From the NCBI GenBank assembly GCA_017416855.1, contig JAFQAZ010000025.1, forward strand, positions 1-64,000: a DNA stretch of 64,000 nucleotides, written 5' to 3'. Numbering within the stretch: the first letter of the stretch is position 1; the number at the start of each line of letters is the position of its first letter. Of this stretch, positions 672-60,528 are shown one piece after another. This DNA is from Clostridia bacterium. GTDB lineage: Bacteria > Bacillota > Clostridia > UBA1381 > UBA9506. The notes beneath the pieces are model-generated. The model worked only from the letters and a program-made list of their open reading frames with translations. It was not told the origin of the DNA and ran no database searches. Position numbers and translations under genes: made by a program.

Positions 672-770
672 TTGAAAAATTTTTTAAAAAAATTTTTAGA
701 AACCTACCATAGTTTGGGTAGTTTTACATTTAGAATGTGTTTTGAAAGGAGGTGCAACGGCTATGTCTGA
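672..770 (+). CDS. Possible 32-aa small protein upstream of the HTH gene
   Basis: A TTG start lies eight bases after a clean GGAGG (659-663). The peptide is basic and hydrophobic (begins MKNFLKKFLETYHSL) and its stop overlaps the start of the next gene by a few bases, which would permit translational coupling. I do not recognise the sequence. Only the ribosome site and the overlap support it, so it may be spurious. Confidence 0.3.
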   Translation: MKNFLKKFLETYHSLGSFTFRMCFERRCNGYV

Positions 771-1107
771 TGGAGCAAAAGTATTTGAAAGACGAATGGA
801 AATGCTTTTCCTATTACACAATGTTAAGGAAACAACAGTACCATCATTAGCAAATTATTTTTCTGTGAGTGCGAACACAATTCACAGAGATATTTCCTTC
901 CTTAGTCGTTATGCACCTATATATACACGGCACGGAATGTATGGCGGTATCTTTTTATTGAAAGGATATAAAAGCGATTTGAAACTGCATTTGTCAGTAG
1001 ATGAAAAAGATTTACTTGAACAACTCGCAGAAAAATCTAATAAAAAAGATGCAAGATTGCTTCGTAACATCCTACATAAATATTCCATGCCACCATCCGA
1101 TGTATAA
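763..1107 (+). CDS. Small HTH (DeoR-like winged helix) regulator
   Basis: A 114-residue protein. Roughly residues 10-60 form a helix-turn-helix of the HTH_11/DeoR type (VPSLANYFSVSANTIHRDIS), followed by the small wing RHGMYGGIFLL; the C-terminal half is charged and helical. I chose the ATG at 763 because AAAGGAGG (745-752) sits ten bases upstream; an earlier in-frame TTG at 742 lies before that site. There is no effector domain, so it is probably a local regulator of the integrative element that also carries the excisionase and integrase downstream. The target is unknown. Confidence 0.7.
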   Translation: MSDGAKVFERRMEMLFLLHNVKETTVPSLANYFSVSANTIHRDISFLSRYAPIYTRHGMYGGIFLLKGYKSDLKLHLSVDEKDLLEQLAEKSNKKDARLLRNILHKYSMPPSDV

Positions 1108-1618: not shown

Positions 1619-1834
1619 ATGGAAGAAAAAATAAAGCGTGGAAGCTATAATAAGATGTTTAAAGGCTATCCTGATGTCCTGAACATTATGCAGATGTGTG
1701 AAATGCTTGGAGGAATAAGCAAACAGACGGGGTATAAATTCTTGAAAGAAGGGAAAATCAAGAGCGTAAAAGTTGGGAGAGAATACAGAATTGTCAAAAA
1801 ATATGTTATTGACTTTCTTTTGCAAAATAATTGA
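1619..1834 (+). CDS. Excisionase-family DNA-binding protein
   Basis: A 71-residue protein of the MerR-like/HTH_17 excisionase family: residues about 19-62 contain LNIMQMCEMLGGISKQTGYK, then a LKEGKIKSVKVGREYRI wing and a basic tail. Proteins of this size directly upstream of a tyrosine integrase normally act as directionality factors, bending DNA so that the integrase excises the element. The ATG at 1619 follows AGGAGG (1601-1606). It lies 93 bp before the integrase gene on the same strand, which has its own promoter candidate in the gap. Confidence 0.8.
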   Translation: MEEKIKRGSYNKMFKGYPDVLNIMQMCEMLGGISKQTGYKFLKEGKIKSVKVGREYRIVKKYVIDFLLQNN

Positions 1835-1927: not shown

Positions 1928-3226
1928 ATGGATAAACACGGAATAGATGTAAAAGCATATATACGAGAGAAAAAAGGATTGTACTATGTTTCTATTGTTT
2001 ATGTAAATAGTGCAGGAAAAAGAAAGGACAAATCTTTTCCTACAAAACTACCCGTAAAAGGCAACAAGAAAAAAGCAGAACTTATGGCAAAAGAAATTTT
2101 GGAGAATTTTGAAATTCCGGTGGTTGATTTATACTTGCAAGATGCATCAGCAATAGGCGATGGTAAAGAAATTAAGAAAAAAAGAAACATCGTATTGCCG
2201 AAAGAGTTAATTGAGCAGGTTACTCTATCTGATTTGACAAAAGAGCAAGTGTCAGGGATGTTATTTGCGGATTATTTGGAGAAGTATTTACCAATAGTAA
2301 AAAAAAGAGGAATTGAAGAAACAACATATTCATCATATGCGGGAAATGTTAAAAATCCGATAGGTCCTCATTTTCGTAATAAGAATATTACTCTTGGCAA
2401 ACTGACATCAAAGGATATTCAAGATTTTTACGATATTCAGCTTGAAAGAGTAACGGCAAATACTGTGATTCACTATCACGCAATAATAAGATTGGCATTA
2501 TGTTATGCAAGGAAAATGGGATATATAAAGGAAAATCCCATTGAAGAAGTGGAAAAACCTGAAAAAAACCGTTTTGTAGGTTCGTTTTATCAAAGTTCAG
2601 AGTTAAACAAAATTATTGAACTTACACGAGATACAAAATTGGAATTTGCAGTGATCTTCGGTGGCTTTTATGGTTTGCGTAGAAGTGAGATTGTTGGACT
2701 AAGATGGTCTGCGATAGACTTTGAAAATAATGTTTTCTATGTTAATCATACTGTTACAACCCCGCAAGTTGATGGAAAGAAGAAAATTATTGCAAAAGAC
2801 AGAGCGAAAACCAAATCAAGTATCCGTGCATTACCACTTGATGAAAGTGTTAAGGCAAGATTGATTGAACACAAACGCAAGCAGGAAATGTATCGTAAAA
2901 AGTTTAAGCGTTCTTATAGTAAGGAATGGCTTGACTACATAATGGTTGATGAATTAGGCGGATTGATTTTACCGGATTATATTACATCTGCGTTTAGTAA
3001 TTTATTAAAAGCAAATGGTCTAAGGCACATAAGATTTCATGATTTAAGACATACTTGTGCATCCTTGCTATTAAATAAAGGCAAACAAAACGGAGTTACC
3101 TTAAAAGATATTCAGGTATGGCTCGGTCATAGCGATTTTTCTACAACAGCAAATATATATTCTCACTTAGATGCTAATTCAAAAATATCATCACTTGATA
3201 CACTTTCGGGCGTTGTTAATATATAA
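1928..3226 (+). CDS. int: Tyrosine site-specific integrase
   Basis: A 432-residue phage/ICE-type integrase. The N-terminal about 60 residues look like an arm-binding domain (GLYYVSIVYVNSAGKRKDK), about 105-195 is the SAM-like core-binding domain, and the C-terminal catalytic domain shows GLRRSEIVGLRW (first Arg), FHDLRHTCASLL (His-x-x-Arg) and WLGHSDFSTTANIYSHL with the nucleophilic Tyr. All catalytic positions are present, so it is probably active. The ATG at 1928 follows AAGGAGG. The gene ends 48 bp from the 3' end of tRNA-Ser, the classical place for an integrase beside its target tRNA. It most likely drives insertion at tRNA-Ser(CGA). Confidence 0.93.
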   Translation: MDKHGIDVKAYIREKKGLYYVSIVYVNSAGKRKDKSFPTKLPVKGNKKKAELMAKEILENFEIPVVDLYLQDASAIGDGKEIKKKRNIVLPKELIEQVTLSDLTKEQVSGMLFADYLEKYLPIVKKRGIEETTYSSYAGNVKNPIGPHFRNKNITLGKLTSKDIQDFYDIQLERVTANTVIHYHAIIRLALCYARKMGYIKENPIEEVEKPEKNRFVGSFYQSSELNKIIELTRDTKLEFAVIFGGFYGLRRSEIVGLRWSAIDFENNVFYVNHTVTTPQVDGKKKIIAKDRAKTKSSIRALPLDESVKARLIEHKRKQEMYRKKFKRSYSKEWLDYIMVDELGGLILPDYITSAFSNLLKANGLRHIRFHDLRHTCASLLLNKGKQNGVTLKDIQVWLGHSDFSTTANIYSHLDANSKISSLDTLSGVVNI

Positions 3227-3240
3227 TAGGGGAACGAAAA

Positions 3241-3268
3241 AGAGGTTTCCGTTTTATTGGAAACCTCT
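3241..3268. terminator. Hairpin between int and tRNA-Ser
   Basis: The perfect 10-bp arms AGAGGTTTCC (3241-3250) and GGAAACCTCT (3259-3268) flank an 8-base loop. The T-run is on the minus strand (TTTTTCG), so it mainly terminates the leftward tRNA-Ser transcript, but it can also stop the int transcript. Confidence 0.7.
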
Positions 3269-3273
3269 GAATG

Positions 3274-3364
3274 TGGCGGAGAGTTAGGGATTCGAACCCT
3301 AGGTTGGCTCATCACCAACACGAAATTTCGAGTTTCGCACCTTCGACCTCTCGGACAACTCTCC
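3274..3364 (-). tRNA. tRNA-Ser (anticodon CGA)
   Basis: Read on the minus strand it starts GGAGAGTTGTCC and ends with a perfect 7-bp acceptor partner ACTCTCC, G and encoded CCA. The anticodon loop is CTCGAAA (anticodon CGA), there is a long type-II variable arm (GTTGGTGATGAGCCAAC), and the T arm contains GGTTCGAATCC. It is intact and 91 nt long. It is flanked by the integrase on its 3' side and by two decayed tRNA-Ser 5' halves on its 5' side, so this copy was probably delivered by the integrative element as a replacement for the host gene. Confidence 0.95.
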
Positions 3365-3402
3365 TTATCTATTTTGAACAGCTCGGAAAAAGAAAGAATA
3401 TT

Positions 3403-3425
3403 TTTGGGAACTTTCTTTGGGAACT
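3403..3425. repeat. Paired TTTGGGAACT repeats (putative integrase arm sites), copy A
   Basis: Two TTTGGGAACT copies at 3403-3412 and 3416-3425, period 13 bp. The same pair with the same period recurs at 3588-3610. Short direct repeats close to a core site are how tyrosine integrases mark arm-binding sites; that role is inferred. Confidence 0.55.
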
Positions 3426-3473
3426 GCTAAAAACGATAATATTAAATTTTTGAAAAATCCCCATAAAATAAGG

Positions 3474-3550
3474 GTTTGTGAAGGGTTTCGCCACAAATGG
3501 TCATAACAGATTTCGAGTCGAGGCCGTTATAACCACTTCGATACTTCTCC
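3474..3550 (-). pseudogene. Decayed 5' half of a tRNA-Ser(CGA), copy 2
   Basis: The reverse strand reads GGAGAAGTATCGAAGTGG, then TTATAACGGCC and an ACTCGAAA anticodon loop, matching the D-arm and anticodon layout of tRNA-Ser. Homology fades after the variable arm and no T arm or acceptor 3' strand is present. The anticodon stem is mismatched. TTTCGAGT (3511-3518, plus strand) is the putative crossover core, shared with the intact tRNA (3326-3333). Confidence 0.6.
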
Positions 3551-3587
3551 CAATATATTTTTCAGCTCTGCAAAAGGCGTGTAAATC

Positions 3588-3610
3588 TTTGGGAACTCCT
3601 TTTGGGAACT
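3588..3610. repeat. Paired TTTGGGAACT repeats, copy B
   Basis: TTTGGGAACT at 3588-3597 and 3601-3610, period 13 bp. The copy lies within a stretch that also matches 3364-3460 outside the motif (both have a TGGGAACTGC end, then AATATTAAATTTTT). Confidence 0.55.
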
Positions 3611-3661
3611 GCAAAATAAGCAATATTAAATTTTTCAAAAAGCCAGTAATATCAATGGGTT

Positions 3662-3732
3662 AGGGGGTGTGATGTTCCGAAATACTTAAAGTTTTTCGAG
3701 TTAGCCCCATTATAAATGTTTCGATACTTCTT
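3662..3732 (-). pseudogene. More decayed tRNA-Ser(CGA) 5' half, copy 3
   Basis: The reverse strand reads GAAGAAGTATCGAA, then ATTTATAATGGGG, then an ACTCGAAA anticodon-loop octamer. It resembles copy 2 more than the intact tRNA but is more diverged, consistent with being the oldest copy. TTTCGAGT is at 3694-3701. No 3' half is present. Confidence 0.45.
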
Positions 3733-3820
3733 CAAATTCGGTTATCAATGTTAATATTGTAACCGAATTGTTGTGCTTTGTCAAGAGTTAAGTGGTGTAT
3801 TCGTAGAACAATAGGAAAGG

Positions 3821-3849
3821 TTTACAAATACATATTTTTTTGATATAAT
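3821..3849 (+). promoter_or_regulatory. Predicted sigma-A promoter of the pfkB-family kinase gene
   Basis: TTTACA (3821-3826), 17 bp, perfect TATAAT (3844-3849). It lies 34 bp before the GTG start of the kinase. Confidence 0.65.
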
Positions 3850-3882
3850 AGTTCTACATTACAGGCAGAAAGGGCGTTTGGT

Positions 3883-4821
3883 GTGGGACATAAGATTATT
3901 ACGGTTACATTGAATCCATGTATAGACAAAACAATTATCGTTAACGGTTTTACAGAAGGGGGCCTGAACCGCGCAGAAAGAGTGCGGACCGATGCCGGTG
4001 GCAAAGGTATTAATGTAGCCAAGGTTTTGAAAAACTTCGGGAATGATGTCCTGGCCGTAGGCGTTATGGGTGACCATGGCAGGGAGACTCTTATTGCGGA
4101 ATTGGATGAGAGAAGAATTAAGCATCGTTTCTTGACTGTTCCTGGCACAATCAGAACCAATTATAAACTATATAATAAGGAAACAAAACATATAACAGAA
4201 ATTAACGAGCCGGGTTTTACTGTTGCAGAAGAAGAACTAGACCCCGTTCTTTCATTAATAAATGAAGGAATGGAAGAGGCAGGTGTTCTGGTGCTGTCCG
4301 GTAGTGTTGCTCCTGGATTTTCAGAAGATATTTATAAAGAGTTGATTGTCCGGGCAAAGGAAAAAAAAGTCCGGGTGGTGCTGGATGCAGAGGGTGAGCA
4401 TCTACGAAGGGGATTGGAAGCGGCTCCCTTTGCGATAAAACCGAACTTATATGAATTGGAATTATTTATAGGAAGAAAAATTTCAGGGATTTGTGATGTG
4501 CTTGCTTGCGGGGAAAAAATTTTAGAGCAGGGCATTGCGTTATTGGTCGTTTCCATGGGCGAAAAAGGTGCTGTTTGTATGACGCAAAACGAGCGGTATT
4601 ATGTGAAACCGCCAGCCGTGCAATGCAAAAGTACAGTAGGAGCAGGAGACTCTATGGTGGCGGCTATGGCGTATGGCTTGGCACAGAAAATGAGTATAAA
4701 AACAATTGCTTGCATGGCTACGGCGGCAGGTACCATAACTGCCACAAAAGAAGGCACCGAGGTGTGCGATTTTCATGAAGTTCAGGATTTTTCGAAAAAA
4801 CTTTTAGTAGAAAGTTTATAA
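3883..4821 (+). CDS. 1-phosphofructokinase/tagatose-6-phosphate kinase family protein
   Basis: A 312-residue PfkB-fold hexose-phosphate kinase. The N-terminus (ITVTLNPCIDKTI) and GGKGINVAKVLKNFG are typical of the FruK/LacC subgroup, which phosphorylates fructose-1-phosphate or tagatose-6-phosphate using ATP. The C-terminal PfkB signature STVGAGDSMVAAMAYG holds the catalytic Asp and anion hole. Length is normal for the family. The GTG start at 3883 follows GAAAGGG. It is a single gene with its own promoter and no PTS transporter or FruR-type regulator beside it, so the exact substrate cannot be fixed from context. Confidence 0.85.
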   Translation: MGHKIITVTLNPCIDKTIIVNGFTEGGLNRAERVRTDAGGKGINVAKVLKNFGNDVLAVGVMGDHGRETLIAELDERRIKHRFLTVPGTIRTNYKLYNKETKHITEINEPGFTVAEEELDPVLSLINEGMEEAGVLVLSGSVAPGFSEDIYKELIVRAKEKKVRVVLDAEGEHLRRGLEAAPFAIKPNLYELELFIGRKISGICDVLACGEKILEQGIALLVVSMGEKGAVCMTQNERYYVKPPAVQCKSTVGAGDSMVAAMAYGLAQKMSIKTIACMATAAGTITATKEGTEVCDFHEVQDFSKKLLVESL

Positions 4822-4841
4822 AATATCAATGCTTTTGCTTA

Positions 4842-4875
4842 TTTTCACAAATGGATTGAATTGCATTTGTGAAAA
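4842..4875. terminator. Hairpin after the pfkB-family gene
   Basis: A perfect 12-bp stem (TTTTCACAAATG 4842-4853 with CATTTGTGAAAA 4864-4875) around a 10-base loop. No strong T-run follows on the plus strand, so termination efficiency is uncertain. Confidence 0.45.
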
Positions 4876-4918
4876 ATGCCAAAAACGAAAAAAATTACAA
4901 AATGATGACTAATTTTTA

Positions 4919-4947
4919 TTGACATACAGTTTTTTTTGTATTATAAT
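4919..4947 (+). promoter_or_regulatory. Consensus sigma-A promoter of the secreted-protein operon
   Basis: Perfect TTGACA (4919-4924), 17 bp spacer, perfect TATAAT (4942-4947). This is the strongest promoter by consensus in the window. Confidence 0.8.
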
Positions 4948-4999
4948 ACATTATAGGATCATGATAGACTATTAATATTATGAAAAGTGGGTGTGATTA

Positions 5000-5962
5000 A
5001 TGAAGAAAGGTTTAAAGAAAATTTTGGCAGCGCTTGCAGCTGGCGCAATGCTTCTGAGTATGAATATGTCTGCATTTGCATTAACTTATAATGCAAGCAC
5101 AACTTACACAAATGAAACAACAGCTACTGTTAATGTTACCAATGTTACTGCTGGCGCGAATGATCAGGTGGCTTTCTTAGCAGAAAATGGTTCTGAAATC
5201 ATTTACATTGATCAAAAGACAGCTGATGCTTCAGGTAATGTAACAAACTTTAGCTTCGCAATTGATTTGAAAGATGCAATTGCAGCTCCGACCATTAAGG
5301 TTGGTTCTACCAGCACAGCAGCAGGTGCTGCTACATCAATTAAGCTGGCAAGCAAAACTGCTTCTGCTACTTCCAACAATGCAGACTACGGTCAGGTTAT
5401 TGTAGATGCAACAACTGTTTACGGCGATGTTGTTAAAGTGTATGTTGCTCCTTATAGTGGTTATGCTCCTGTTTCCTACTCAGTAAATGGTGACGAAGCT
5501 CAGCCCATTACTGCTATCAGCAATGAGGGTTATATTACTGTTGATTTAACAAATGTTTCTGGCGAAACTGCTGCTATTGTAGTGAACTTTGATGAAGCTG
5601 ATGCAGGTGATGTTATTGTTACTGCTCAGCCTGCTACTAAGTTGCCTACAGGTCGTGGCTTTACCGTGTTTGGTACTGCAAGCAATGCAGTTGAATTTGG
5701 TGCCTTGGTAGCAGGAACCGAAGGCGAAATTACGAATGTTAATCAGAGTGATATTGCTAATCTGGTGCCCAATACCGGTGCTGTAAAGAAGTTTGCTGCA
5801 TTGGCTGCTGATGGTGCAGGCGCATTTAGTATTACGGTTGAAGATGCTGAAGTAAATGGCGCATATGTTTTACCGAACAGCATTTCTGTTGCTACTTATG
5901 CCGTAGGTACTGATTTCAAGACTGCAACTGCTGGTACTGTTAGTCTTGTAGACGCTGAGTAA
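5000..5962 (+). CDS. Secreted Ig-like repeat protein of unknown function
   Basis: A 320-residue protein with a clear Sec signal peptide (MKKGLKKILAALAAGAMLLS, cleavage near AFA-LT at about residue 27). The mature part is Ala, Thr and Val rich with very few Lys or Arg. Residues about 55-105 (EIIYIDQKTADASGN...) resemble the beta-sandwich modules seen in large clostridial surface proteins; the rest is probably also beta-rich. There is no SLH, LPXTG or choline-binding anchor, so it is probably released or held by partners. A consensus promoter and optimal-looking codons suggest high expression. It is followed 19 bp later by a 65-residue peptide gene in the same transcript. The function is not recognised. 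Confidence 0.8.
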   Translation: MKKGLKKILAALAAGAMLLSMNMSAFALTYNASTTYTNETTATVNVTNVTAGANDQVAFLAENGSEIIYIDQKTADASGNVTNFSFAIDLKDAIAAPTIKVGSTSTAAGAATSIKLASKTASATSNNADYGQVIVDATTVYGDVVKVYVAPYSGYAPVSYSVNGDEAQPITAISNEGYITVDLTNVSGETAAIVVNFDEADAGDVIVTAQPATKLPTGRGFTVFGTASNAVEFGALVAGTEGEITNVNQSDIANLVPNTGAVKKFAALAADGAGAFSITVEDAEVNGAYVLPNSISVATYAVGTDFKTATAGTVSLVDAE

Positions 5963-5981
5963 TTAGAAGGAGGATATAGCT

Positions 5982-6179
5982 GTGAGAGAATATATTAAAC
6001 CCGAACTTCAGGTTCGTGAAATTAGAGTTATGGAAAACTTAGCAAAAACCACACGTGCTGGTATTGCTTTAAATTGGGTAAAAGGTCAGGCTCCTTCTAC
6101 TGTTTATAGCCTTGGTCTCTACACCGGTTCCGGTGTTCAGCCGGCTGCTGAGGAAACTGACGAAACAGTTAATGCATAA
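5982..6179 (+). CDS. 65-aa peptide with YxxPxL leader-like N-terminus
   Basis: A GTG start follows AAGGAGG with good spacing. The N-terminus MREYIKPELQVREIRVMENL has the YxxPxL pattern found in leader regions of lasso-type RiPP precursors and in many uncharacterised small clostridial proteins. The C-terminal part (after TTRAG) is small-residue rich and ends in an acidic EETDETVNA tail. There is no signal peptide and no Cys. It is co-transcribed with the upstream secreted protein. No RiPP cyclase, RRE or protease gene is nearby; an HprK-like kinase of the type sometimes found in lasso clusters lies 9 kb away. The product could equally be a non-RiPP partner of the secreted protein. Confidence 0.65.
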   Translation: MREYIKPELQVREIRVMENLAKTTRAGIALNWVKGQAPSTVYSLGLYTGSGVQPAAEETDETVNA

Positions 6180-6201
6180 TTGAACAATTAAGAGTATTAA
6201 T

Positions 6202-6233
6202 AAAGCACATCATTTTGATGTGCTTTATTTTTT
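6202..6233 (+). terminator. Rho-independent terminator of the secreted-protein operon
   Basis: AAAGCACATCA (6202-6212) pairs perfectly with TGATGTGCTTT (6216-6226), followed by ATTTTTT. Confidence 0.85.
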
Positions 6234-6251
6234 ATGGTTTACATAAAAGAA

Positions 6252-6293
6252 AAAAGAGTAGCAATTACAATCAAAGTGAATTGCTGCTCTTTT
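6252..6293 (-). terminator. Rho-independent terminator of the smpB-side transcript
   Basis: A 15-bp stem with one G-T/C-A position (AAAAGAGTAGCAATT with AATTGCTGCTCTTTT), with the T-run on the minus strand. It ends the leftward miaB-mutS-smpB transcript. Confidence 0.7.
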
Positions 6294-6348
6294 TATAATT
6301 TGAGAAATGATGCTACATTTGTGTTGAACTATAATTGCATCGGATAGA

Positions 6349-6801
6349 TCAACCTTGATTCTTTGCTTTGATAGCACGGTCCATTTGCCGTTTGGCATCG
6401 CGGTCGGCTATATCATTTCGCTTATCATATAGTTTTTTACCGCGGGCTAAAGCAATTTGTACTTTAACCAGACTATCTTTTAAATAAACAGATAAAGGAA
6501 TAACAGAGAAGCCCTTTTGTTTGACAGAACCAAACAGATAATTAATTTCCCGTTTATGGAGCAACAATCGTCTGTCGCGTAAGGGATCTTTATTGAAGAT
6601 GTTGCCCTGCTCATAAGGGCTGATGTGCATATTTTTAATAAACGCTTCGCCACCGGAAAAGCTGACAAAGCTATCCTTTAAATTCAGAGCACCTTTTCGA
6701 ATGGATTTAACTTCCGTACCGCTTAATGAAATACCTGCTTCAAAGGTTTCTTCAATAAAATAGTCATGTCTTGCCTTTCGATTTTCAGCTAAAATTTTCA
6801 T
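6349..6801 (-). CDS. smpB: SsrA-binding protein SmpB
   Basis: A 150-residue protein that binds tmRNA and delivers it to stalled ribosomes for trans-translation. Family marks: [20 protein letters not shown] at the start, [23 protein letters not shown], and the basic C-terminal tail [18 protein letters not shown] that enters the ribosomal decoding site. I start at the ATG at 6801; the longer frame to 6864 begins inside the mutS end and adds an unrelated Cys/Lys-rich stretch. It follows mutS closely on the same strand. The tmRNA gene, often adjacent, is not seen in this window. Confidence 0.95.
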
Positions 6802-6826: not shown

Positions 6827-9430
6827 TTAATTCTTAGCAGTTTTTTGCAACTCAAACAACACATTCATTGCCTCAATGGGCGTCAGTGTGGTGATATCCA
6901 TTGACTTTAAACATTCAATAATCTCAGCACCGCGCATATCTGCAATACCAAGCTGCATATCCGGCTCGGTTATTGGAGCGGTTAAAGTGGTTGTCTGATG
7001 CTTATCATCCTTATTTTCAATAGAGGTTAAAATTTCCTTCGCTCGCTTTACCACTTGCGGAGGCAGACCGGCTAAAGCGGCAACTTCAATACCATAGCTG
7101 TCATCAGCGCCACCGCGTACAATTCGGCGGAGAAAGGTAACACTGTCTCCGCGCTTTTTGCAGGCGATGGAGTAGTTTTTCACACCGGCAAGCTGTCCTT
7201 CCAAAGCGGTCAATTCGTGATAGTGAGTTGCAAACAAGGATTTTGCTCCAAGCTTTTTAGATGATATGTATTCTGCCACACTCCAGGCGATGGCCAGTCC
7301 ATCAAAGGTACTGGTGCCACGACCAATTTCATCTAATAGAAGTAAGCTTTTGTTGGTAGCATTTTTCAAAATGGCAGAGAGCTCTGTCATTTCCACCATA
7401 AAAGTACTCTGACCGGCGGATAAATCGTCGGAGGCGCCGATACGGGTAAAAATTTTATCGCAAATGCCGATTGTACAAGCTGATGCCGGGACAAAAGAGC
7501 CGATTTGAGCCATAATGGTAATCAAGGCCACCTGACGCATATAAGTGGACTTACCGGCCATATTAGGACCTGTTACAATGAGGAAACGGTCATCCTTACA
7601 GTTTAATTCGGCGTCGTTGGGAACGAACAGTTCGTTCTTTAACATTTTTTCAACGACAGGATGACGACCGTCACGAATGCTGATGGTATCTGACATATCT
7701 ACAGTTGGCATCGCATAATTATTCTTAGCCGCCACCTCTGCAAAAGAACAGAGCACATCGGCTATCGCTAAAGCAGTAGCCGTTTTCTGAACCCGCTCTA
7801 CTTCTTGTGCAATGGTATCCCGGATATCACAAAAGAGCTTGTATTCTCTCTGACGCAAACGCTCTTCAGCACCTAACAGTTTATCTTCAAGTGCTTTGAG
7901 TTCCGGATGAATATATCGCTCATTATTGGCTAAAGTCTGCTTGCGGATATATTCCGGAGGGACCTCACCCTGAAAGGATTTGGGTACATCAATATAATAT
8001 CCGAACACTCGGTTATAGCTGATTTTCAGGGTTTTAATGCCTGTGCGTTCACGCTCTGCCGCTTCCATGCAGGTAACGGCTTCGTGTCCGTTATCCTTCA
8101 AGTCTCGGTTTGTATCAACCTCTTCGTCATAGCCTTCTTTAATAATGCCGCCTTCGCGGGTAATATTGGGGGCGTCGTCCCGGATGGCTGCTTCCAAAAT
8201 GTCTAATAAATCACCCATTGTGTCAAGACTCTCAGACAATTCATTGATTAAGGGAGAGTCTAACCGTGCAAGCAGCAATTCCACCTCCGGTAACACTAGG
8301 AGAGAACGTTTAAAAGCGACCAATTCTCTGGGTGTAGCCGATTTGCAGACAATACGGCCGATCAGGCGCTCTAAATCCTGAATTTCATAAAGAGCCGCCA
8401 TTAGGTCCATACGCAGTTCTGCATTTTTCAGTAAGGTATCTACAGCATATAGACGTTTTTGAATTTTGGTGCAATTCACCAAGGGCTTTTCCAAAAAGCT
8501 TTTCAGCATACGGCCGCCCATGGCGGTTTTGGTTTTATCCAGCACCCAAAGCAGAGAACCTTTTTTGTTGCCTAAGCGCATAGTTTCCGTCAGCTCCAGG
8601 TTGCGACGGGTGTTGGCATCAAGCTCCATATAATCTTCTGCGCTATAATGCCGTACAGCACGGATGTGTTTTAAAAATGTTTTTTGTGTGGCTGTTAAAT
8701 ACTCGATTAACAGACCTAAGGTGTTGATGACACAAGTATCCTCAGGCAGACCTAATGCTACCGGAGTATCAACATTGAACTGCTTTGTGATCAAATCCCA
8801 TGAGTGTTCCCACTCCGGTTCAAAAGCAGCCTGATCCATTCTGGCGTTAAAGCGTAAATCAATTTCTGCGCGGAGAAGCTCGTTTTCATAAACCGGACCG
8901 GAACAAATGATTTCCGCCGGCTTATACCGTGCCAGTTCATCCAGCAATTTTTGCCAGGAGGGCAAGGTGACTAAAAACAACTCACCGGTGCTTATATCAG
9001 CAAAGGATACGCCAAATCGGCCGCTATCTTCATAAACAGCACAAAGAAAGTTGTTGCTTTTTTCCTCAAGCTGAGCGGTATCTGTTATAGTGCCGGGGGT
9101 GATAACGCGGATAACATCGCGGGGGAGCACACCTTTTACTTCGCCTGGCAGAGCCATTTGTTCACAAATAGCCACTTTAAAGCCTTTGGCGGTTAAACGA
9201 CCGATATATGTATCTGCCGCATGAAAAGGTACACCGCACATGGGATTGTTTTCTACGTCCGGTCGACCGGCTTCATTTTTCTGACGGCTGGTCAGTGCTA
9301 AATCCAGCACTTCAGAAGCCGTGCGGGCATCTTCTGAAAACATTTCATAAAAGTCGCCCATACGGAAAAACAGAATCGCATCGGGATATTCTTTTTTCAG
9401 CTCATAATACCGCTCCATTGCCGGTGTCAT
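6827..9430 (-). CDS. mutS: DNA mismatch repair protein MutS
   Basis: An 867-residue full-length MutS1. The N-terminal mismatch-binding domain carries the Phe-x-Glu wedge motif ([12 protein letters not shown]); connector, core, clamp and C-terminal ABC ATPase domains follow. Walker [12 protein letters not shown] lies near residue 620, with [15 protein letters not shown] (Walker B/signature) and THYHELT after it. It recognises base mismatches and recruits MutL; no mutL is in the window. The ATG at 9430 has AGGAGGA eight bases upstream. It is in an operon with the RicA-like gene and miaB upstream and smpB downstream. Confidence 0.97.
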
Positions 9431-58428: not shown

Positions 58429-60528
58429 ATGTTTAAAACCTATGAAATGGAACTGGCGGGTCGTCCGCTGGTCATCGAAACAGGCAGATATGCTGAACTC
58501 GCCGGCGGTGCCGTTATGGTTCGTTATGGTGACACAGCTATTTTGTCAACAGCAACGGCTTCTGCCAAGCCCAGAGAAGGAATCGATTTCTTTCCCTTGA
58601 GTGTTGACTATGAAGAAAAACTCTATTCCGTTGGTAAAATCCCCGGTGGTTTTATTAAACGTGAAGGTCGCCCTACCGAGAAAGCAATTTTAACTTCTCG
58701 TGTGATTGACCGTCCCATTCGTCCCTTGTTCCCCAAAGACTTAAGAAATGATGTTTCTGTTGTAAACACCGTTATGTCTGTTGAACAGGACAATTCTCCT
58801 GAAATTGCCGCTATGATTGGTACATCCTGTGCCATCAGTATTTCTGACATTCCCTTTAACGGCCCCATCGGCGGCGTTATTGTTGGCTATGTTGACGGCG
58901 AGTTTGTTATTAACCCCACCGCAGCACAGCGTGAAAAGAGCTTAATGCACTTAACCGTTGCCGGCACTAAGGAAAAGGTTGTTATGATTGAAGCCGGTGC
59001 CAAAGAAGTATCTGAAGATGTTGTATTTGACGGTATTCAGCTGGCTCACGAAGAAATCAAGAAGATTTGTGATTTCATTTCTGGTATTCAGGCTGAAATC
59101 GGTAAAGAAAAATTTGCTTATGAGCCTCACGTGGTTGATCCCGAAATGTATGAGGATGTGAAAGCCTTTGCTGAGGACAAGCTGAAGATTGCTTTAGACA
59201 CCGATGACAAGACTGTTCGTGAAAAGAACCTGAAGGTTATTTACGATGAACTCTATGCTCATTATGCTGATAAATACACCGAAGAAGAACACGGCACTGC
59301 TATTTATGAAGCAATGGAAAAACTGCAGAAGACCATCGTTCGTCGCTGGATTTTAGATGAAGGCAAGCGTGTTGACGGCCGTGGTATCTTAGACATCCGT
59401 CCTCTTTCTGCTGATGTTGCTCTTCTGCCCAGAACCCACGGCTCCGGTTTGTTCAAGCGTGGTCAGACTCAGGTGCTCACCGTTGCCACCTTAGGTGCCA
59501 TGGGTGATGCTCAGGCCTTAGACGGCATTGATTTAGACGATCAGAAACGCTATATGCATCATTATAACTTCCCCTCTTACTCTGTTGGCGAAACCCGTCC
59601 CTCCAGAGGTCCGGGACGTCGTGAAATCGGTCACGGCGCATTGGCTGAACGCGCTTTGGAACCCGTTATTCCTCCCGAGGAAGAATTCCCTTATGCAATT
59701 CGTCTGGTTTCTGAAGTATTAAGCTCTAACGGTAGTACCTCGCAGGGTAGTGTTTGTGCCAGCACTCTGGCGCTGATGGATGCTGGTGTGCCCATTAAGG
59801 CACCTGTTGCCGGTATTTCTGTAGGTCTTGTAACCGAAGGTGAACGTTTTATTACCATGGTAGACATTCAGGGCTTAGAGGACTTCTATGGCGATATGGA
59901 CTTTAAGGTAGCCGGTACCAAAGCAGGTATTACTGCTATTCAGATGGATATTAAGATTGATGGTTTAACACCCGCCATCATTAAGCAGGCTCTGGCTCAG
60001 ACCAAGGAAGCCCGCTTCAAGATTATTGATGAAGTTCTCTTAAAGGCCATTGAGGCTCCCAGAGCATCTCTTTCTCAGTATGCTCCCAAAATCTTTACCA
60101 TGACTATTGATACCGATAAGATTCGTGACGTCATCGGCTCCGGCGGTAAGACCATTCAGAAGATTATTGCTGAAACCGGCGTTAAAATTGATATCGAAGA
60201 TGACGGTAAGGTATATATTGCTACAGCTGATGAAGAAATGGCCAACAAGGCTATGGAAATCATCAAGGGCTTAACCGGTAACATCGAAATCGGCTCCATC
60301 TACAAAGGTAAAGTTGTCAACATTCTGCCTTTTGGTGCATTTGTTGAGTTCCTGCCCGGTAAAGACGGTATGGTTCACATCTCCAAGCTGGCTAACAAGC
60401 GTGTTGAAAAGGTTGAAGATGAAGTGAATATCGGTGACGAGATTATGGTTAAAGTCATTGAAATTGACAGACAGGGCCGCATCAATCTTTCCCGTAAAGA
60501 TGCGATGAACGAACTGAATCTCTGGTAA
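58429..60528 (+). CDS. pnp: Polyribonucleotide nucleotidyltransferase (PNPase)
   Basis: A 699-residue 3'-5' phosphorolytic exoribonuclease. Two RNase PH-like domains (the second with [21 protein letters not shown] and [17 protein letters not shown]), an alpha-helical linker between them, a KH domain ([15 protein letters not shown]) and a C-terminal S1 domain ([20 protein letters not shown]). The ATG at 58429 follows GGAGG. The C-terminal tail after S1 is very short (ends NELNLW). rpsO, usually just upstream, is absent. Confidence 0.97.

Follow-up and report, generated by a model that had tools for sequence, protein, structure and literature searches.

The left end of the DNA analyzed here, a 64,000-nucleotide window (contig 25, bases 1-64000, of a 32-contig draft genome of 2.37 Mb), is best read as the integrase end of an integrative element equipped with a whole tRNA-Ser gene and splitting resident tRNA-Ser genes serially, a reading to which we assign a probability of roughly 0.88. 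The rule described for islands in tRNA genes (tDNA islands) is that attP carries a fragment of the tDNA that restores the target (PMC4383910; PMC8371274), and a single partial tDNA copy marks an island (PMC9897764); Islander holds 3760 islands with 3' fragments and 159 with 5' fragments (PMC4383910). The elements of gut Clostridia described below break this attP-repair rule, in that they bring in a whole gene and leave the resident gene abandoned in two halves.

As the window starts at base 1 of its own contig, the far end of the element is absent from it, and 3.2 kb of the element is present. From left to right, the locus comprises a gene for an HTH_17 protein, the integrase gene, a terminator, a tRNA-Ser(CGA) gene, a pair of arm sites, a spacer, a tRNA 5' half (scar 1), a second arm pair, a second spacer, a second 5' half (scar 2) and the chromosome, where the right-hand neighbor encodes a pfkB-family kinase (3883-4821, plus strand; Pfam PfkB). 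The integrase (1928-3226, plus strand; 432 amino acids) is of the tyrosine type, with a PF00589 match (E, 2.4e-20) and N-terminal SAM-like domains, and the gene directly upstream encodes a 71-amino-acid HTH_17 protein (1619-1834, plus strand; E, 1.5e-7) that is a probable excisionase; an HTH_17 protein is likewise encoded by the first gene of the related element L044. A small HTH regulator farther to the left (763-1107, plus strand; Pfam HTH_11 / HTH_DeoR) probably belongs to the element as cargo. The integrase and tRNA genes are convergent and share an intrinsic terminator (3241-3268, minus strand; 10-bp stem, U tail) lying behind the tRNA gene; a lone GGGGAAC (3229-3235, plus strand) may be the remnant of a left arm pair, which is present as a pair in L043, L044, L055, and L056.

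The tRNA-Ser(CGA) gene (3274-3364, minus strand, 5' end towards the right) is complete, encodes its CCA, and was recognized by ARAGORN and by Rfam RF00005 (47.6 bits, above the gathering score of 29); two other Rfam matches at the locus, Plastid-psbl-rps4 and RAGATH-32, were under their gathering scores and were set aside. The first-pass annotation had reported that this gene is followed by two 5' halves in the same orientation, and both are borne out: in ungapped comparison with a functional tRNA-Ser 5' half, scar 1 (3511-3550, minus strand) matches at 34/40 positions and scar 2 (3694-3733, minus strand) at 31/40, against a best match of 24/40 in 1000 dinucleotide shuffles of the region. All three copies do share TTTCGAG at the anticodon loop (at 3326, 3511, and 3694), and the core within the intact gene (3326-3332, minus strand) would be the next target. 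The description of both halves as progressively decayed stands for scar 2, which has lost the GG of the D loop and would derive from the oldest resident tRNA-Ser gene, but not for scar 1, which consists of the core and an intact 5' half; the latter matches the 5' half of the window's own intact gene at 25/40 positions and that of the complete tRNA-Ser(CGA) of L050 at 40/40, and it is therefore a different allele, undecayed, which we assign to the tRNA-Ser(CGA) of an earlier element.

Two putative promoters accompany the scars. TTGACA-17-TACAAT (3756-3784, minus strand; 11/12 of the consensus) probably served the original tRNA gene as its native promoter, recurs as the same motif in the flank of G007, a genome of the window's genus, and points through the scars towards the intact tRNA-Ser gene, with no terminator found in between. 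TTTACA-17-AAAAAT (3557-3585, minus strand) may be the fossil promoter of the earlier element's tRNA, its 9/12 match lying inside the chance range of the region. An extended -10 motif before the carried tRNA was clear in four of the nine elements tested (L044, L050, L055, and L056; shuffle P, 0.001 to 0.005) and was not significant by the same test in L048, L052, or the window, for whose carried tRNA we therefore do not claim a promoter of its own.

Arm pairs of the form TTTGGGAACT(N3)TTTGGGAACT, with repeats 13 bp apart, lie at 3402-3425 and 3587-3610 (both plus strand). Their presence between consecutive copies had been noted previously, and both were recovered here, whereas 1000 dinucleotide shuffles yielded none; the distance from arm end to core, said to be nearly constant, measured 85 and 83 bp. 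The pair next to the intact gene, the putative P' arm of the youngest element, is near-identical in L048, L049, and L052, and the second is attributed to the earlier element. Repetition extends beyond the arms: the 5' halves recur with a 185/183-bp period, the entire unit of 183 to 185 bp is repeated, and the window's two units are 73% alike over the repeat found. An alignment of 10 units, which delimited the spacers of the youngest (3426-3510) and the earlier (3611-3693) element, revealed a CAATATTAAATTTT-like motif that is conserved in relatives; a decayed 3' half had also been considered as the origin of the spacer, but this conserved motif of its own spoke against it. Arms, tRNA-proximal leader, and spacer motif all align across units and are conserved with the carried tRNA, so that the complete tRNA is part of the conserved end of the element. 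Pattern searches across the window's own genome returned just the two arm pairs already known from the locus and neither a further pair nor a second tRNA-Ser(CGA) 3' half. Two candidates for the far 3' half were discarded, C31:112976-113000 as a chance match within a coding region and C29:20-33 because it belongs to a tRNA-Met.

Relatives of the window's integrase that adjoin tRNA-Ser genes, 57 to 71% identical to it, come from the same order and class, from MAGs labelled Clostridia and Oscillospiraceae. Most of these relatives show the succession of integrase gene, terminator, complete tRNA-Ser, arm pair, spacer of about 85 bp, core, and 5' half of the same isoacceptor; the isoacceptors carried are CGA and GGA, the unit is 182 to 185 bp long in most elements and 206 to 210 bp in two, and L056 and L078 have two scars each. 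The far ends, matching scar halves, uninterrupted genes, and fossil unit of relatives described below support the proposal that the elements carry a complete tRNA-Ser with arms, cut the resident gene at its anticodon loop, and leave the 5' half behind, and no integrase-free relative with the same tandem array, which had been named as the observation that would speak against it, was found. Viral contigs contained no relative of the integrase and no exact match to the arm pattern. In L055 and L056, the tRNA cassette is flanked by identical arm repeats. At L058 (G218:C31), integrase, arms, spacer, and core are present and the tRNA in between is absent; the cassette may have recombined away or may never have been gained. 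At L059 and L097, the 3' end of the tRNA is severed right after TGGCGGAG, beside integrase-type flanks, suggesting that another break or insertion point lies close to it.

Two complete elements among the relatives, L044 (6.7 kb) and one in G456 (58.4 kb), show what the far end looks like. In L044, a bare tRNA-Ser 3' half ends at the core at 1909, after which come a Z end bearing a GGGAAC arm pair, the HTH_17 gene, two reverse transcriptase genes, the integrase gene, the carried tRNA, arms, the core at 8590, and a 5' half; contig C16 of G456 has the same anatomy, with the far core at 2101 and the outer core at 60472. In both, a tRNA gene has been split at a fixed subsite into two resident fragments that end at the anticodon-loop core, the 3' half at the far end and the 5' half at the integrase end; neither is completed by the element, and a separate, complete, and different tRNA-Ser lies inside. 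The outer halves, when joined, form in L044 as in G456 a tRNA-Ser whose anticodon stem is fully paired, whereas the L044 3' half and the 5' half of the carried tRNA form no tRNA. The 3' half that was expected at the far end on the basis of the window is thus present in both elements, and it matches the 5' half at the integrase end. The cargoes of the two differ: the L044 reverse transcriptases (2955-6494) match Drt3a and Drt3b, a defense pair that is the main cargo of this compact element, and the G456 element carries restriction-modification, beta-galactosidase, GH1, and S-layer genes. Ten G456 proteins were scanned, with metabolic, S-layer, and restriction-modification families found and no conjugation families among them.

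The G456 element also allows the replaced gene and its replacement to be compared directly. Six congeners of G456 have an uninterrupted tRNA-Ser(GGA) that is identical to the joined halves at 92/92 bases, which answers the earlier call for a comparison with element-free relatives, and the carried gene is 77% identical to this native gene; a foreign gene has thus taken the place of the resident one. The sole full-length match to tRNA-Ser(GGA) in the G456 assembly, which is 89% complete, is the carried copy. The carried GGA gene is identical at 92/92 bases in the elements of G017, G012, G015, and G456, which span two host families, and the integrase genes of G017, G012, and G456 are 86 to 88% identical in DNA. 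Identity of the tRNA in the face of 12 to 14% divergence of the integrase gene implies selection, and the carried tRNA gene appears, from these sequence comparisons, to be kept by it. The window genome's own tRNA-Ser(GGA) (L002) is 98% like the carried GGA gene, with no arms or scar adjoining. At L092, an apparently orthologous site in the G456 congener G481, the tRNA-Ser(GGA) is 98% identical to the carried type and 78% to the native type, and no element or scar was seen adjoining it; this gene is possibly a replacement that has outlived its element.

From this anatomy we infer the crossover chemistry, the expression of the genes, and the number of local insertions behind the two scars of the window. 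Recombination by the integrase would take place between the element's outer core (arms-spacer-core-Z) and the 7-bp anticodon loop of a resident tRNA-Ser gene for the same isoacceptor, and this gene would be permanently split, its 5' half and promoter coming to lie just outside the integrase end and its 3' half at the far end. Both halves would be abandoned and the complete tRNA gene of the element would take over, expressed either from a promoter of its own or from that of the former resident gene, some 200 bp distant, which could drive it because no terminator was found in between. Since the carried tRNA would then be the only intact target, it is this gene that the next element would split, and each round would add one unit of approximately 183 to 210 bp (5' half, leader, arms, and spacer) on the side away from the integrase; scars would therefore pile up outward, the older ones being more decayed. 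In the window, scar 1 would represent the tRNA of the previous element and scar 2 the oldest resident gene.

Several observations bear on the serial character of the process. The older, fossil unit at L078 in G475 is identical to the right end of the G008 element at 202/202 bases; G008 belongs to the genus of the window, G475 to a different family. With an integrase 39% identical to that of the window and arms reading GGGCAAA, the G008 element shows that this site is exploited in a like manner by more than one integrase lineage. This second lineage (L101/L104, G008:C16, 12594-14150) has the same whole-tRNA architecture, and its element carries restriction-modification-like genes; the L104 integrase, like that of L044, belongs to PF00589. 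A third arm type, TAGAAA/TTAGA, was seen at the same tRNA-Ser(CGA) site, in the left ends of L097, L098, and L100 and in the units of L102, L099, and G007, and it also marks L010. In G102, the integrase gene is followed by a tRNA 3' half, a core, and then the left end of another element, the joint predicted for insertion into the tRNA of an earlier element, which taken alone also fits conventional tandem islands. Two human-gut contigs labelled phage, MT839038 and MT836101, contain an integrase gene, a tRNA-Ser(CGA), and two scars, the tRNA of MT839038 being 87% identical to that of the window. Repeated insertion at the window's locus, at least two events, is strongly implied, and one of the two scars may have come in as part of a block, together with an element.

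Such block transfer, in which an element is excised via an older outer core with a unit attached, would reduce the local history to one insertion and place the remainder elsewhere. We regard it as an unlikely account of the window, though the one deserving most attention among the alternatives. In its favor, several cores in a row offer the integrase a choice; it could also explain why the second unit of G475 equals the right end of an element from another host family, and the right-end core of L110 is indeed joined to the left end of another element. Against it, the oldest scar shares its position on the pfkB side with G007, where the pfkB orthologue is 71% identical, two tRNA-Ser 5' halves occupy the same site, and the contig stops exactly at a core; at least the oldest scar is therefore local, and the model of carried-tRNA splitting is unchanged either way. 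Somewhat less likely again is that the integrase deletes or amplifies units between neighboring cores, so that the number of scars does not equal the number of insertions. L048, with one scar, and L051, with none, occupy the same chromosomal site within one genus, which unit loss would explain; loss would make the scar count too low rather than too high, and in the window neither unit is a recent copy of the other, given their different tRNA alleles and 73% similarity.

The two remaining alternatives dispense with replacement altogether. Conventional integration, with attP bearing a tRNA 3' half, the intact gene a hybrid, and the 5' halves incidental remnants, has the described rule for tDNA islands (PMC4383910; PMC8371274) on its side, as well as arm motifs that in several elements also occur on the integrase side of the tRNA. 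Its integrase end is resembled at L043/L057, L045, and L051, where the integrase gene sits beside a tRNA-Ser with its native leader, joined directly to the chromosome and lacking a 5' scar; these loci may reflect the conventional mode or the loss of a unit via core-core or 5'-half recombination. We nevertheless consider this account improbable for the window, and it is already contradicted for L044 and G456: there the 3' half at the far end matches the outer 5' scar rather than the carried gene, the scars of G456 when joined are identical to the native gene at 92/92 bases, and the 5' half and leader of the carried tRNA move together with the element from one host family to another. An integrase-independent origin, with the tRNA gene duplicated in tandem through slippage or unequal crossing-over, would give head-to-tail copies with a near-constant period, as seen, but hardly the rest: the 5' halves represent three different alleles (25/40 between the intact gene and scar 1), integrase-type arm pairs lie within the units, and the copies lack 3' halves, with the break always at the anticodon loop. 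We consider it the least credible of the alternatives.

Compared with known systems, the splitting of resident genes by elements with a whole tRNA-Ser shares much with the tDNA islands of Islander (PMC4383910), including a tyrosine integrase gene at the element end, attB in the anticodon loop, a displaced tRNA fragment at the far end, and the occurrence of tandem islands. Those islands regenerate the gene from element and resident parts and leave one fragment (PMC4383910), whereas the present elements supply a complete gene of their own and leave the two resident halves in place. The ssrA islands of Dehalococcoides (PMC3146451) are similar in that serial insertions stack gene fragments beside an intact copy and so record past insertions; they differ in using a Ccr-like serine recombinase, in repeating only a 20-bp 3' end of ssrA, and in repairing the gene, whereas the window has a tyrosine integrase and a tRNA-Ser target. 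Archaeal pTN3-like integrases, as reviewed in PMC8371274, use a tRNA gene 5' half as attB; in that account, the matching segment of the element restores the tRNA and no separate whole tRNA gene is described. Tycheposons, according to a second-hand description (PMC10872708), are tyrosine-recombinase cargo elements bordered by a tRNA gene. The literature searched, outside which many subscription papers lie, gave no account of whole-gene tRNA replacement, and priority is not established.

We tentatively suggest, as an idea with less than an even chance of being right, that these elements are tRNA-replacement devices that have made themselves indispensable, achieving stability without a toxin and passing tRNA genes successively between families. 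As the resident halves decay and the tRNA of the element becomes the sole copy of its isoacceptor, loss of the element would cost the cell a tRNA, and a tRNA-Ser(GGA) so lost is probably essential. Replacement moves whole tRNA genes between bacterial families and could lock an element in place. Because the gene is replaced instead of repaired, a fragment matching the host gene is needless beyond the short core, and a need to match just this core would widen the host range. Insertions leave datable scars, one for each event and in a set sequence, so that such loci may be read as insertion histories, and for one scar stratum a present-day counterpart has already been identified. Island-finding programs would log these loci as ordinary 3'-fragment islands and miss the replacement. 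Draft contigs often end at or near a tRNA-Ser core (L010, L050, L053, L096-L100, and L111), a pattern to be expected if cells differ in whether they carry an element, or in which one they carry.
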